Below, piece by piece: positions 33,412 to 37,909 of a DNA stretch of 64,000 nucleotides. Position 1 is the stretch's first letter. Every line of letters starts with the position of its first letter. The stretch comes from Sulfurovum sp. (GTDB lineage Bacteria > Campylobacterota > Campylobacteria > Campylobacterales > Sulfurovaceae). The position numbers were made by a program, and so were the translations under genes. The stretch spans positions 30,738 through 94,737 of the forward strand of contig JALXCZ010000052.1 of the NCBI GenBank assembly GCA_026990595.1, given 5' to 3'. The notes below the pieces were generated by a model. It did not search any database. It saw only the letters and a list, made by a program, of their open reading frames with translations, and was not told where the DNA came from.

Positions 33412-33789
33412 CTATCTGGCCATCTCGGATGGTTGTACAGGCTCACCCCACATTTCATCAGGGATCACATATTCCTGTACTACATTGCCACCGATAATAT
33501 GCTCATCAATGATCCTGTCTATCTTCTCTTTGGTCAAGCCTACATACATCGTATGTCCTGGCTCTACAAGCATTACAGGACCTTGTTGACAACGGTTCAG
33601 ACAGCCTGTTTGGATAGGCTGTACTGTACCGATGATCCCTTTCATCATAAGAGACTGTGCCAAATGTTGGAAAAGTTGCTGAGATTCTGGGTCATTTTGA
33701 CTTACGCAGCTTGGTTTTGGCATCCCCGGAGGTGCTGACTGCTGACATTTAAATATATAGAACGCTGGTTGTGGTACACCTGGCATCAT
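33412..33789 (-). CDS. Thioredoxin-like [2Fe-2S] ferredoxin
   Basis: 125 residues. The cysteine pattern FKCQQ ... PSC ... TGCLNRCQQGPVM is that of thioredoxin-fold [2Fe-2S] ferredoxins (also NuoE-like), with the typical PGHTMYVGLTKEKIDRIIDEHI after it. It would be a soluble electron carrier. It has its own terminator and is divergent from the FmdE/hemerythrin operon. Partner enzyme unknown. An AAGGA ribosome site supports the listed start. Confidence 0.85.
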   Translation of the reverse strand: MMPGVPQPAFYIFKCQQSAPPGMPKPSCVSQNDPESQQLFQHLAQSLMMKGIIGTVQPIQTGCLNRCQQGPVMLVEPGHTMYVGLTKEKIDRIIDEHIIGGNVVQEYVIPDEMWGEPVQPSEMAR

Positions 33790-33916
33790 AGTAATCCTTT
33801 GAAAATTATTCTTCTTGAACAGAAGTAAAGCTCCTATTCAATTCCTCTCACTAAATCTTCACACTTGGCTTAGAATCAGTTTAATTGAGAGTATTTTACT
33901 CCTATTTGCTTAATTC

Positions 33917-33930
33917 TTGATAAATATCAA
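33917..33930 (+). promoter_or_regulatory. FNR/DNR-type binding site TTGAT-N4-ATCAA
   Basis: A perfect palindrome TTGATAAATATCAA, the consensus of CRP/FNR-family regulators such as FNR, ANR and DNR/NNR. The -10 box TATAAT follows at 33953-33958, which puts the site centre at about -41.5 from the predicted start, the class II activator position. Confidence 0.75.
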
Positions 33931-33952
33931 TCTACAATTTACTTTTTTTGAC

Positions 33953-33958
33953 TATAAT
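33953..33958 (+). promoter_or_regulatory. -10 box of the FmdE/hemerythrin operon
   Basis: TATAAT in GACTATAATCCCC, 28 bases before the ATG at 33987; transcription start about 33965. Confidence 0.6.
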
Positions 33959-33986
33959 CCCCTTAATTCAATCACTAGGAAAAACT

Positions 33987-34595
33987 ATGAAATATCCTGA
34001 TTTTTTTGACAAAGTCCCCTCCATCGATCTTCAAGATCCACTCAGTGATTTTTTAGGAGCATTTGAAGAGGGGAAGCTGCAGATCAGCTATCTTGAGTGT
34101 GTCAAACTCGCAGGGCACTCCTGTCCTACAGTAGCAGGTGCATACCTTATGGCACTCCATGGTCTCAAAGCTCTCTACGGCACAGAACTGCCACAAAGAG
34201 GGAACATCCATATCTCTATGAGAGAAAGTGAAGCAGAGGGAGTTACCGGTGTGATCTGTAATGTCATCTCTTTTATTGCCGGAGCCAACGGTGCAGGTGG
34301 ATTCAAAGGACTCAATGGGAAAATGTCAAGAAACAACCTTGTCAATTACGACGTTCCCATAGATGGGGAAGTAAAACTCACACGTACAGACACGAATCAG
34401 AGTGTTACACTCAGTTATGATTCATCTATGGTACCTGGTGACCCTATGATGCAACCGCTTATGGGTAAATGCATGCAAGGGCTGGCAACACCTGAAGAGA
34501 AAAAAGAGTTTGGAAGACTCTGGCAGGCACGTGTTGAGAAAATTTTACTCTCTACTGAGCTTTGGGATACAATGATAACAATTACAAAGGGTTAA
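33987..34595 (+). CDS. FmdE-like protein
   Basis: 202 residues from the ATG at 33987, which has a Shine-Dalgarno AGGA; the track's earlier start is a TTG upstream of the promoter-proximal region. The block KLAGHSCPTVAGAYLMALHGL is the FmdE signature, with a Cys and His likely to bind metal. FmdE is named after formylmethanofuran dehydrogenase operons but is widespread in bacteria without that enzyme, and its role is not firmly known. Here it leads an operon with hemerythrin, DUF2249 and a membrane protein under an FNR-type site, suggesting redox or nitric-oxide physiology. Confidence 0.82.
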   Translation: MKYPDFFDKVPSIDLQDPLSDFLGAFEEGKLQISYLECVKLAGHSCPTVAGAYLMALHGLKALYGTELPQRGNIHISMRESEAEGVTGVICNVISFIAGANGAGGFKGLNGKMSRNNLVNYDVPIDGEVKLTRTDTNQSVTLSYDSSMVPGDPMMQPLMGKCMQGLATPEEKKEFGRLWQARVEKILLSTELWDTMITITKG

Positions 34596-34598
34596 AAG

Positions 34599-35039
34599 AT
34601 GATTATTTCACAATTTATGACACAAGAACACAGAGACTGCGATACAGAATTTGCAGCAGCAGAACAGGCAGCGGCAAAAGGAGACTGGGCTGAAACAGAA
34701 GAGAAGTTCCTAATTTTTTCAAATGATACACTCAGACACTTTAAACGAGAAGAGGAGGAGCTTTTCCCGGCATTCGAAACACAGACCGGAAGCAGTGAGG
34801 GACCTACGCAAGTTATGCGTTATGAACATGAGCAGGTGAAAGGTCTCATAGGGAAATTGGCAGAGGCTGTGGAATCACAGGACAAAGATGCTTATCTCTC
34901 TCTTTGTGAGTCCATGATGATCCTTCTTCAGCAGCACAATATGAAAGAAGAACAGATGCTTTACTCGATGTGTGACAGAGTACTTCCTCCGGAACTTAAA
35001 ACAGATACATTAGAAAAAATGCAAAAAGTAGAGCTTTAA
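34599..35039 (+). CDS. Hemerythrin-like HHE domain protein
   Basis: 146 residues forming one four-helix hemerythrin domain. Candidate di-iron ligands are in TQEHRDCD, LRHFKREEEELFPAFE, RYEHEQVKGL and LQQHNMKEEQMLYSM. Such proteins bind O2 or nitric oxide, or help repair iron-sulfur clusters (as YtfE does). It begins three bases after the FmdE-like gene and six bases before DUF2249, all in one operon. Confidence 0.9.
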   Translation: MIISQFMTQEHRDCDTEFAAAEQAAAKGDWAETEEKFLIFSNDTLRHFKREEEELFPAFETQTGSSEGPTQVMRYEHEQVKGLIGKLAEAVESQDKDAYLSLCESMMILLQQHNMKEEQMLYSMCDRVLPPELKTDTLEKMQKVEL

Positions 35040-35044
35040 AGTAG

Positions 35045-35311
35045 ATGCAACAGTTAAAAGAAATCCTACTTGACGCAAGAGAATTGGAACATCCAAAACC
35101 TCTTGAGCATGCTATACACGCATTAAGAGAACTGAATGAAACAAACTATTTCTATATGATCCATCGTAAGAACCCTATACCGTTGCTTGATCTTGCCAGT
35201 GAACAGCATTTTCAAGCATTAAGCAAAGAAGATAACAAAGGCATTTGGCATATATTTATTTGCAAAAATCCTAATATTCGTTTAAATGAGCTGATTGAGA
35301 GTCATGTTTAG
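35045..35311 (+). CDS. DUF2249 protein
   Basis: 88 residues: LDARELEHPKPLEHAIHALREL then FYMIHRKNPIPLLDLASE, the DUF2249 pattern (a small TusA-like alpha/beta fold). DUF2249 often occurs fused to, or beside, hemerythrin and nitric-oxide related genes. The exact role is unknown. Its end overlaps the next gene by 8 bases. Confidence 0.82.
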   Translation: MQQLKEILLDARELEHPKPLEHAIHALRELNETNYFYMIHRKNPIPLLDLASEQHFQALSKEDNKGIWHIFICKNPNIRLNELIESHV

Positions 35312-36584
35312 CCAAAACGGTCTCTCTCTCGATCAAGCGCCTCCTATTTCAGTAGTTTTTCGTTTCTTTCTTTCTGGTGCACTCTTTGGCATCCTTGCCG
35401 GCATACTCATACTCTTTTTTCAAACAGTAATCTTTGATGCACACAGTATGAAAGCGGTTATCTTGACACATACCTTGACACTGGGTGTCATGTTGTCTTT
35501 TATGTTCGCTGCACTTTTTCAAATGCTTCCGGTTATAGCAGGAGTAACGCTTACTTCCCCCATCAAGAAAGCAAATCTTGTACAATATCCTTTTGTCTTA
35601 GGTGTGACTGCTCTACTTTTAGCCTTTAACTTCTCTTCTCCGTGGCTTTTTACGGTAGCATCACTTTTACTTGGAGGAAGTATTCTTTTTATCACGATTA
35701 TTATGCTTAGTAACCTTGTAAAACTTCCTAACCAGAGCAGCTCATCCAGGGGAATGTTGACAGCCCTGGCTTCTTTGGCAATCGTCGTTCTTCTGGCACT
35801 CTATATGACAGGAACGTTAAGCGGTTTATTTGAAGGAAGTTATTATACTCAGATCAAAACAGCCCACTACTCTTTTGGACTTTTTGGCTGGATAGCACTG
35901 CTTATTATCTCTATTTCATTCCAGGTCATAGAGATGTTCTATGTCACACCGCCCTACCCAAAACTTGTCAGTAAATATCTGCCATTGACACTTTTAACGC
36001 TACTTGTCATCACAACCATCACAGGATTATTTAATCCTAATATATGGGCAGTATCAAATACACTACTTGCTTTACTCTTGATAGGCTATGCCCTCTTGAC
36101 ACTTAAAAGATTGACACAAAGAAAACGACCCTTAACCGATGCTACAGTATGGTTCTGGCGTCTGGGACTTAGCAGTTTGATTTTAAGCATGTTAACACTG
36201 GTTATGACAAACTTTACAGAGTTGTCATGGGTAAAAAGTTCTACTTACCTCTTTTTTGCATCCTTTGCCCTGAGTATTGTCTTTGCGATGTTTTACAAGA
36301 TAGTTCCATTTTTAACATGGTTTCACCTTAACAGCCAAGGCTACTTCACCGCACCCATGATGCACGAAGTCATCCACCCTAAAACAGCGATGAAACATCT
36401 TTACATTCATTTGGCAACACTTGTCACTTTTATATTGTCACTGTTTATAAATCTATTTATTTTTTTAGCAGGTGTATTAACCATACTCTCATTTGGATGG
36501 ATGGCATGGCAGATAATACATGCATGGAGACTCTATAAACATACACAAGAGACTGGGGAGAAGTTTGAGATGAATATTGCGTAG
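35304..36584 (+). CDS. Polytopic membrane protein, NnrS- or heme-copper-oxidase-like
   Basis: 426 residues from the ATG at 35304 (the track begins at a TTG three codons earlier). About 12 hydrophobic helices. Conserved-looking blocks are LTHTLTLGVMLSFMFAALFQMLPVIAG, AHYSFGLFGWIALLIISISFQ and KIVPFLTWFHLNSQG, with His residues at the start of helices, as in heme-binding membrane proteins. It is last in the FmdE-hemerythrin-DUF2249 operon. Nitric-oxide or copper/heme handling is plausible; no direct proof. Its stop codon TAG is the GTAG of the palindromic repeat at 36581. Confidence 0.75.
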   Translation: MFSQNGLSLDQAPPISVVFRFFLSGALFGILAGILILFFQTVIFDAHSMKAVILTHTLTLGVMLSFMFAALFQMLPVIAGVTLTSPIKKANLVQYPFVLGVTALLLAFNFSSPWLFTVASLLLGGSILFITIIMLSNLVKLPNQSSSSRGMLTALASLAIVVLLALYMTGTLSGLFEGSYYTQIKTAHYSFGLFGWIALLIISISFQVIEMFYVTPPYPKLVSKYLPLTLLTLLVITTITGLFNPNIWAVSNTLLALLLIGYALLTLKRLTQRKRPLTDATVWFWRLGLSSLILSMLTLVMTNFTELSWVKSSTYLFFASFALSIVFAMFYKIVPFLTWFHLNSQGYFTAPMMHEVIHPKTAMKHLYIHLATLVTFILSLFINLFIFLAGVLTILSFGWMAWQIIHAWRLYKHTQETGEKFEMNIA

Positions 36585-36610
36585 GGTGTTGTGAGGGCAC
36601 AACACCCTAC
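36581..36610. repeat. Palindromic REP element D, fused head-to-head
   Basis: GTAGGGTGTTGT GAGGGC ACAACACCCTAC: a perfect 12-bp stem with a 6-nt loop, so both ends carry GTAG. It contains the stop codon of the preceding membrane protein gene and separates it from convergent murE, six bases away. It should act as a bidirectional terminator. Confidence 0.85.
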
Positions 36611-36616
36611 AAAAGC

Positions 36617-37909
36617 TTATTGAATATCCAATAACCCTCTAACAACCTCACGATCATCAAAAGGATATTTCACCCCTTTAATCTCCTGATAATCTTCATC
36701 CCCTTTACCAAGAATTAGTAAGACTTCATTCTTCTCAAGTGCATCAAGCGCCATTTTAATAGCAAGTTTTCTATCTGGACACGCAGTGACATTCTCTTTA
36801 CCCACAAGTCCTACAAGAATATCTTCAAGTATCTGTTCTGGTACTTCATCACGCGGGTTGTCTGAAGTGACATAGATCTTGTTGGCATATCTGCCTGCCG
36901 CTGCTCCCATGCGTGGACGTTTTCCCTTATCACGGTTTCCTCCAGCACCAAAAACTACAGAGATATCTCTGTCTTTCATAGATTCCAGTACAACATGTAT
37001 CCCATCATCGGTATGGGCAAAATCAACGATCACAAGCGGGTCTCGTGAGACAACTTCCATACGACCTGCCACTCCGGCAAAATTCTCTACCACGTCACAG
37101 ATCTCTTGGATGGGGCGCTTTGTTAACATCTGTACAGATCCTATGGCTGCCATAAGGTTAAAAAGATTAAAAAGCCCTACCATAGGAGAATGAAACGTCG
37201 CTTCTTCCTGCATATGTTTGATCCCTGCTGTAATCCCGTGCAATAAAGAGAATGCCTGTACTTTAAAGGTTGCAGGTTCGTCTACACCATAACTTTGTGC
37301 ATTTTTAGGATTATAGGTAATATGATTAATATCATCTTTATTCAGTATCTTGGGTGTCTCATCTGCAAAGAAGAGACTCTTTACACGCCTATACTCCTCT
37401 ACTGTACCGTGATAATCCAAATGGTCAGAAGTCACATTCGTATGTACTTTCAATGCAAACTTCAGTCCCTCTATACGCTTTTGGTCTATGGCATGTGAAC
37501 TTACTTCCATAATGAAATAATTACATCCAAGATCTGAGGTCTGTTTCATATTATGCAGTGTCTCCAAAATAGAAGGAGTAGTCATACTCTTGGCTTCTAT
37601 ACGTTTCTCCTGCGCAAATAAACCACGTGTCCCTTGTAAGGCAGGTTTCTCATCCAGGTCAAGCAAGAAAGAGTAAATAGCCGCCGTTACGGTTGTTTTA
37701 CCGTTTGTTCCGGTCACACCTACCACTTTCATTTCCTCAAGACCCCAAAGCAACATAAGCTCTGCAGGTGTTATGCATGGTGGTTTGGAATCAAGTTTCT
37801 CATAGTAATGCGTATTTTGTACCGTTTTTAAAAAAAGCGTACGGGCATCCAATACGTTGGTATCATCACTCAGAAAGGCATACCCTTTCTGATTAAAGTC
37901 GAGTTTCAC
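36617..37909 (-). CDS. murE: UDP-MurNAc-tripeptide synthetase
   Basis: 430 residues, shorter than E. coli MurE (about 495) because the N-terminal UDP-binding domain is reduced, as seen in Campylobacterota. The ATP loop is GVTGTNGKTTVTAAI. The motif DNPRDE shows that it adds meso-diaminopimelate. HTNVTSDHLDYHGTVEEY and FAHTDDG are further Mur-ligase motifs. Downstream of a TPR-like gene with a 4-base overlap. Confidence 0.96.
   Translation of the reverse strand: MKLDFNQKGYAFLSDDTNVLDARTLFLKTVQNTHYYEKLDSKPPCITPAELMLLWGLEEMKVVGVTGTNGKTTVTAAIYSFLLDLDEKPALQGTRGLFAQEKRIEAKSMTTPSILETLHNMKQTSDLGCNYFIMEVSSHAIDQKRIEGLKFALKVHTNVTSDHLDYHGTVEEYRRVKSLFFADETPKILNKDDINHITYNPKNAQSYGVDEPATFKVQAFSLLHGITAGIKHMQEEATFHSPMVGLFNLFNLMAAIGSVQMLTKRPIQEICDVVENFAGVAGRMEVVSRDPLVIVDFAHTDDGIHVVLESMKDRDISVVFGAGGNRDKGKRPRMGAAAGRYANKIYVTSDNPRDEVPEQILEDILVGLVGKENVTACPDRKLAIKMALDALEKNEVLLILGKGDEDYQEIKGVKYPFDDREVVRGLLDIQ

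Follow-up and report, generated by a model that had tools for sequence, protein, structure and literature searches.

Members of the Campylobacterota are abundant and denitrifying in sulfidic redox zones and at vents, and their control and survival of nitric oxide (NO) have been little described. For the hemerythrin-fold protein YtfE, the di-iron ligands are known and its reaction with NO yields N2O, and the P. stutzeri ric gene is controlled by DnrD (PMC9268430). In Haloferax mediterranei, denitrifying conditions induce genes for DUF2249 proteins (PMC11218638), and in Thermus the DUF2249 proteins DrpA and DrpB modulate nar expression (PMC6282519). As for the regulators, FNR orthologues were stated in a review of the Campylobacterota to be absent from the phylum (PMC6682613).

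The locus described here lies in a Sulfurovum sp. genome of 2.05 Mb (assembly GCA_026990595.1) and was analysed within a window of 64,000 nucleotides (contig JALXCZ010000052.1, positions 30,738 to 94,737), to which the coordinates refer unless another locus is named. It comprises genes for an FmdE-family protein, a hemerythrin (Hr), a DUF2249 protein and a polytopic protein, POLY, behind an FNR/DNR-type operator, with the following features.

33412..33789, minus strand: divergent [2Fe-2S] ferredoxin-like gene (NCBIfam NF041613, 3.1e-23, under its cut-off)
33888..33901, no strand assigned: second palindrome, (A/G)GAGTATTTTACTC, also conserved, in the stretch that separates the operon from the divergent ferredoxin gene
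33917..33930, plus strand: FNR/DNR-type operator TTGATAAATATCAA, a perfect consensus whose position is kept in more than 50 related loci
33953..33958, plus strand: -10 hexamer TATAAT, with a predicted +1 at about 33965
33987..34595, plus strand: FmdE-family gene, 202 aa (Pfam PF02663, 2.4e-5; model pLDDT 96.7)
34599..35039, plus strand: hemerythrin Hr, single domain, with a RIC/YtfE-like di-iron site (Pfam PF01814, 2.2e-20)
35045..35311, plus strand: DUF2249 protein, 88 aa, TusA-like (Pfam PF10006, 4.4e-9)
35304..36584, plus strand: POLY, 426 aa, 12 helices, without a Pfam, NCBIfam or PDB sequence match
36582..36609, no strand assigned: perfect 12-bp inverted repeat TAGGGTGTTGTG-AGGG-CACAACACCCTA at the operon end, read from the sequence

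An earlier sequence-only reading had described four tightly packed genes under a perfect FNR/DNR site about 41.5 bases before the predicted transcription start, the last gene encoding a polytopic protein with histidines at helix starts, and had tied hemerythrin and DUF2249 to NO handling elsewhere. This description holds: the genes and the site are as listed, the spacing and the histidines are borne out by the related loci and the model presented below, and hemerythrin and DUF2249 both have known links to NO or denitrification. The reading frame of POLY overlaps that of DUF2249 by 8 nt, and the FmdE frame has an additional upstream TTG at 33948 which precedes the predicted +1, so that the ATG at 33987 is the likely start. 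The inverted repeat at the operon end is a possible transcription end, though it has no T-run, and the 3' end of a convergent Mur ligase gene lies downstream at 36617. The divergent ferredoxin-like gene is regarded as a neighbour and is not claimed as a member of the module, and the second palindrome is probably the operator of this gene for a regulator of the Rrf2 family. As a side observation, the palindrome GGAGTATTTTACTC occurs in 10 copies genome-wide at no more than one mismatch (0-1 in the control), and lies no more than 40 bp away from a DNR-type box before ccoN, before a NOR-like oxidase operon and between the present operon and the ferredoxin gene (33888-33901 in the window; L067, L068, L070-L076). 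One copy is located upstream of an Rrf2/IscR-like gene with three cysteines (L099:2152-2547, minus strand), whose product is likely the cognate Fe-S regulator of the palindrome.

The centre of the operator lies exactly at -41.5 nt from the +1 predicted from TATAAT, which is the position of a class II activator. Within the window alone, a scan for the box consensus with mismatches allowed found 9 boxes where 6.1 were expected, which is not significant, and a promoter scan of the region was by itself not above chance, while an Rfam scan of the region returned no RNA element. Since the statistics of a single window are insufficient, the box is taken as real on the strength of its conservation across related genomes. 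A genome-wide scan gave 80 named loci, of which 75 extended far enough upstream to be assessed, and a perfect TTGAYNNNNRTCAA was present upstream in 56 of these 75 Campylobacterota loci (mean 0.1 and maximum 2 in dinucleotide shuffles), although the 75 include near relatives and do not represent 75 independent observations. The perfect boxes are placed 50-75 nt ahead of the first gene in 53 of the 56 loci, and in 50 of the 54 loci having a good -10 hexamer the box centre falls exactly at -41.5 from the predicted +1. The loci spread widely, from Sulfurovum and Nitratifractor to Sulfuricurvum and Arcobacter, and regulation of the operon via the DNR-type box is well supported at the level of sequence. 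In several Sulfurimonas loci the box is degenerate. Four Sulfurimonas-type copies (L160, L170, L172, L174) carry a half-changed box, e.g., TTGATTCGTGGTAA, at an unchanged position, which suggests a shift in regulator specificity.

Virtually every locus of the family has the order FmdE-Hr-DUF2249-POLY or Hr-DUF2249-POLY, and most of these loci share the position of the box. The search for the same genes and site in related genomes, which had been proposed along with the sequence-only reading, thus found both conserved. Gene set and site are kept across the Sulfurovaceae, and in much of the Campylobacterota the Hr-POLY core is still accompanied by the site. Hr-POLY is the constant core, while DUF2249 and FmdE differ by lineage; no DUF2249 gene was detected between Hr and POLY in Sulfurimonas and some Arcobacter loci, and FmdE is placed before the core in the Sulfurovaceae, after it in Hydrogenimonas-type loci (L150, L151, L153) and is absent elsewhere. 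That the linkage is kept despite such rearrangement speaks for a functional relation and not simply for an inherited order. In another Campylobacterota genome, an FmdE gene was observed to have a one-base overlap with the gene for a CRP/FNR-type regulator (L222:7723-8861, minus strand).

The 146-aa Hr consists of a hemerythrin domain only according to Pfam, with no ScdA_N domain and its Cys pair, and its profile matches YtfE in the PDB at 1.7e-6. The near-invariant residues H11, H47, E51, H77, H113 and E117 match H84, H129, E133, H160, H204 and E208 of YtfE, where the HMMER alignment spans H129/E133/H160 and the remaining ligands were matched by order and spacing, while E76 corresponds to YtfE E159. 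Against the NCBIfam RIC models, Hr scores 26-28 bits versus cut-offs of 205-300. The FmdE protein passes the Pfam gathering score (24.9 versus 22.9 bits), and its model matches the solved FmdE-like structures 2gvi (prob 1.00), 2glz and 3d00, with an invariant G-H-S-C-P motif including H44 and C46. The DUF2249 protein likewise exceeds its gathering score (36.5 versus 29.5 bits).

The AF2 model of POLY (pLDDT 94.2) was compared with known structures by Foldseek, and every significant PDB match is a heme-copper oxidase subunit I, namely CcoN 3mk7 (prob 1.00, TM 0.75) and, more weakly, bo3 and NorB 3o0r (TM 0.59). H56 and H188, each residue 8 of model helices 2 and 6, respectively, are invariant in 60 POLY homologues, and the charge pattern, which puts the even loops inside, places them in the outer third of the membrane. 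In oxidases, the heme ligand of TM2 and the CuB ligand of TM6 are located in the outer third of the membrane; H56 and H188 would correspond to these ligands by helix order and depth only. The His pair of TM7 and the His-x-His of TM10 are missing from POLY at ligand depth, which leaves two of the six usual histidines; TM10 does contain H341 and H354, but at its cytoplasmic end. POLY, as modelled, thus has a 12-helix subunit I fold with degenerate metal sites, lacking the full set of six histidines of a catalytic heme-copper oxidase or NOR. Neither Pfam nor phmmer, hmmsearch or hhalign gave convincing sequence similarity of POLY to heme-copper oxidases, and a sequence-profile link to CcoN, NorB or NnrS (hhalign, phmmer, hmmsearch) was rejected for the same reason; fold comparison alone worked. 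NnrS is a polytopic membrane protein and a member of NO regulons, and a separate NnrS is encoded in the genome (G000:C41).

In the host genome, 33 copies of the box were found versus 3 of the reversed pattern, and a large share of the 33, being inside genes, is probably due to chance. The intergenic boxes precede norC/norB, nosZ (called by NCBIfam TIGR04246 above its cut-off) and downstream nos genes, a cytochrome-d1-like gene with a d1 domain, and ccoN, as well as the siroheme/heme-d1 genes for siroheme decarboxylase (ahbAB) and siroheme synthase (cysG), a POLY paralogue cassette and a second operon for a NOR-like oxidase, one that encodes an unusual protein of the COX1 family. One box shared by nor, nos and cytochrome-d1-like genes is the co-regulation pattern of a DNR/FNR-type regulon. 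Three CRP/FNR-type regulators were found in the genome, and only one of them has an E-T-F-S-R recognition helix, the other two being without the motif. E-x-x-S-R in the recognition helix is the reading motif of FNR and DNR. The first 70 residues of this regulator contain no cysteine, so the N-terminal [4Fe-4S] cysteine cluster of oxygen-sensing FNR is absent. It is the best candidate activator because it alone carries the reading motif and is without the N-terminal cysteine cluster, and we infer that it would bind the operon box. The cassette and the candidate regulator are located as follows.

L083:2917-4948, minus strand: paralogue cassette of a DUF2249-like gene, a gene for an oxidase-fold protein of about 400 aa, and a DUF59 gene
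L083:6929-7627, minus strand: candidate regulator with an E-x-x-S-R helix, near napA and the POLY paralogue, on contig C37

The paralogue, with 27% identity to POLY, is thus encoded between the DUF2249-like gene and the DUF59 gene. This cassette is widespread in the Campylobacterota (L218-L224), with no adjoining box at L218-L221 and L223 and a CRP-type gene directly upstream in L224. Some further observations concern other genes of denitrification or of the box. A COX1-family protein of 563 aa and a 203-aa protein are encoded behind two DNR-type boxes (L078:3614-5910, plus strand), and since comparable proteins of 548-563 aa are encoded by genomes that have no match to cNorB, they may be an alternative NO reductase. 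NosZ is 903 aa long and carries a cytochrome c domain at its C-terminus (L077:3100-5808, minus strand), and a box TTGATATATATCAA stands before a gene for a small membrane protein and one of the TauE-like permease type, with no obvious denitrification link (L095:3070-4271, plus strand).

The distribution of POLY was compared with that of denitrification genes in 90 genomes of the family, each at least 90% complete. POLY is present in 55 of the 56 genomes with a cytochrome d1 protein and in 4 of the 34 without (both 55, POLY only 4, d1 only 1, neither 30; p=2e-18), where the counts are not phylogeny-corrected and the d1 model PF02239 also matches NirF/NirN-like proteins. In the same order, the counts are 22/1/0/15 inside the genus and 33/3/1/15 outside it. 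The links to cNorB (45/14/1/30) and NosZ (40/19/1/30) are weaker, and the tighter d1 table suggests that the operon follows the production of NO from nitrite more than the later steps. Of the 59 POLY-positive genomes, 4 gave no match to cytochrome d1 and none to cNorB.

With slightly more confidence than doubt, we interpret the operon as an undescribed module for NO protection and repair, controlled by a DNR-type regulator, in Campylobacterota that respire nitrite. The four genes would form one transcription unit, which a DNR-type activator, i.e., an NO-responsive member of the CRP/FNR family, would switch on from the class II site once nitrite respiration makes NO. The RIC/YtfE-like di-iron Hr might then bind NO and/or return iron to damaged centres, while POLY, unable to hold a full heme-copper site, might bind NO or heme in the outer portion of the membrane at H56 and H188, and DUF2249 and FmdE might act as small metal- or sulfur-handling partners; in this scheme we infer NO as the signal and every biochemical role. 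The sequence-only reading had left the choice between an undescribed NO or oxygen response module. The NO or denitrification half is favoured because the nor, nos, cytochrome-d1-like and heme-d1/siroheme genes of this genome also stand behind the box and because the operon co-occurs with cytochrome d1, while the oxygen half is unsupported because the only regulator with an FNR-type reading helix is without the FNR cluster cysteines. A hemerythrin that delivers or senses oxygen behind an oxygen-responsive FNR site thus appears very improbable, even though ccoN is also preceded by the box and C. jejuni hemerythrins are reported, in work cited in PMC10066037, to guard Fe-S enzymes against oxidative damage; the operon follows the nitrite-reduction genes and is absent from 30 of the 34 genomes of the family that have no cytochrome d1 protein.

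The operon might instead encode maturation factors that serve cytochrome cd1 nitrite reductase, or alternatively NOR or cbb3 oxidase, in which case POLY and its partners would help to insert heme d1, heme or metals and NO itself would not be handled. We regard this as a minority possibility and the main rival, since the tightest association is with the cytochrome d1 proteins and not with cNorB, and the POLY paralogue adjoins siroheme/heme-d1-type genes (ahbAB, cysG) and the DUF59 Fe-S assembly gene. However, 4 POLY genomes are without a cytochrome d1 match, the paralogue cassette at L218-L221 and L223 of other lineages stands without an adjoining box, and Hr resembles an NO/iron-repair protein and not a chaperone. 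A sensory or regulatory set, in which POLY, Hr and DUF2249 would inform the transcription machinery of nitrate, NO or oxygen, would have its precedent in Thermus DrpA/DrpB (PMC6282519), and a CRP/FNR-type regulator gene overlapping FmdE in L222 and a CRP-type gene directly upstream of the cassette in L224 also point this way; yet Pfam and NCBIfam found no output domain in the four proteins, and Hr-POLY persists where DUF2249 is lost (Sulfurimonas and some Arcobacter loci), which makes this reading quite improbable. A bolder reading can be proposed, though we consider it unlikely: POLY, its catalytic centre lost, would take NO, iron or heme through the membrane and pass it on to the cytosolic di-iron Hr, the two forming a new NO-disposal or NO-sensing device across denitrifying Campylobacterota, needed for nitrite respiration with cytochrome cd1.

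The fold or family of every component, the box and its position, and the links of hemerythrin and DUF2249 to NO and denitrification are already known. In the literature searched, there is no description of the operon as a unit, of its conserved DNR-type box or of the degenerate oxidase-fold protein, and nothing on hemerythrin-DUF2249-NnrS or FmdE-DUF2249 sets. Pei et al. in 2014 reportedly described novel heme-copper-oxidase families, a work cited for a DUF2249 link, and POLY may be among these families. The present results provide, for the Campylobacterota, a regulon defined by DNR boxes together with its candidate regulator, and they reveal a conserved operon whose genes are unstudied and which is a near-constant companion of nitrite-to-NO respiration in the family.

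Compared with RIC/YtfE/DnrN, Hr shares the hemerythrin fold, the six di-iron ligand positions, the E159 equivalent and the NO-linked regulation, but differs in being a single domain without ScdA_N and in its operon with POLY, DUF2249 and FmdE. The DUF2249 protein has its domain and its place in a denitrification regulon in common with Thermus DrpA/DrpB and Haloferax DUF2249, whereas it is without DUF1858 or a tandem DUF2249, is linked to Hr and POLY, and is lost in some lineages. FmdE shares the fold of the solved members of its family, but here there is no formylmethanofuran dehydrogenase context. Like the heme-copper oxidase subunits I CcoN and NorB, POLY has 12 helices and His near the starts of TM2 and TM6, and like NnrS it is a polytopic membrane protein, but with no PF05940 match and no hhalign relation to it. 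The regulon resembles that of Pseudomonas DNR, with its box TTGATnnnnATCAA (PMC1274295), in the same box, the class II position and the nir/nor/nos-type targets; unlike the present box, TTAACnnnnGTTAA is read by C. jejuni NssR, and among DNR/FNR regulons the present one is distinguished by its place in the Campylobacterota.
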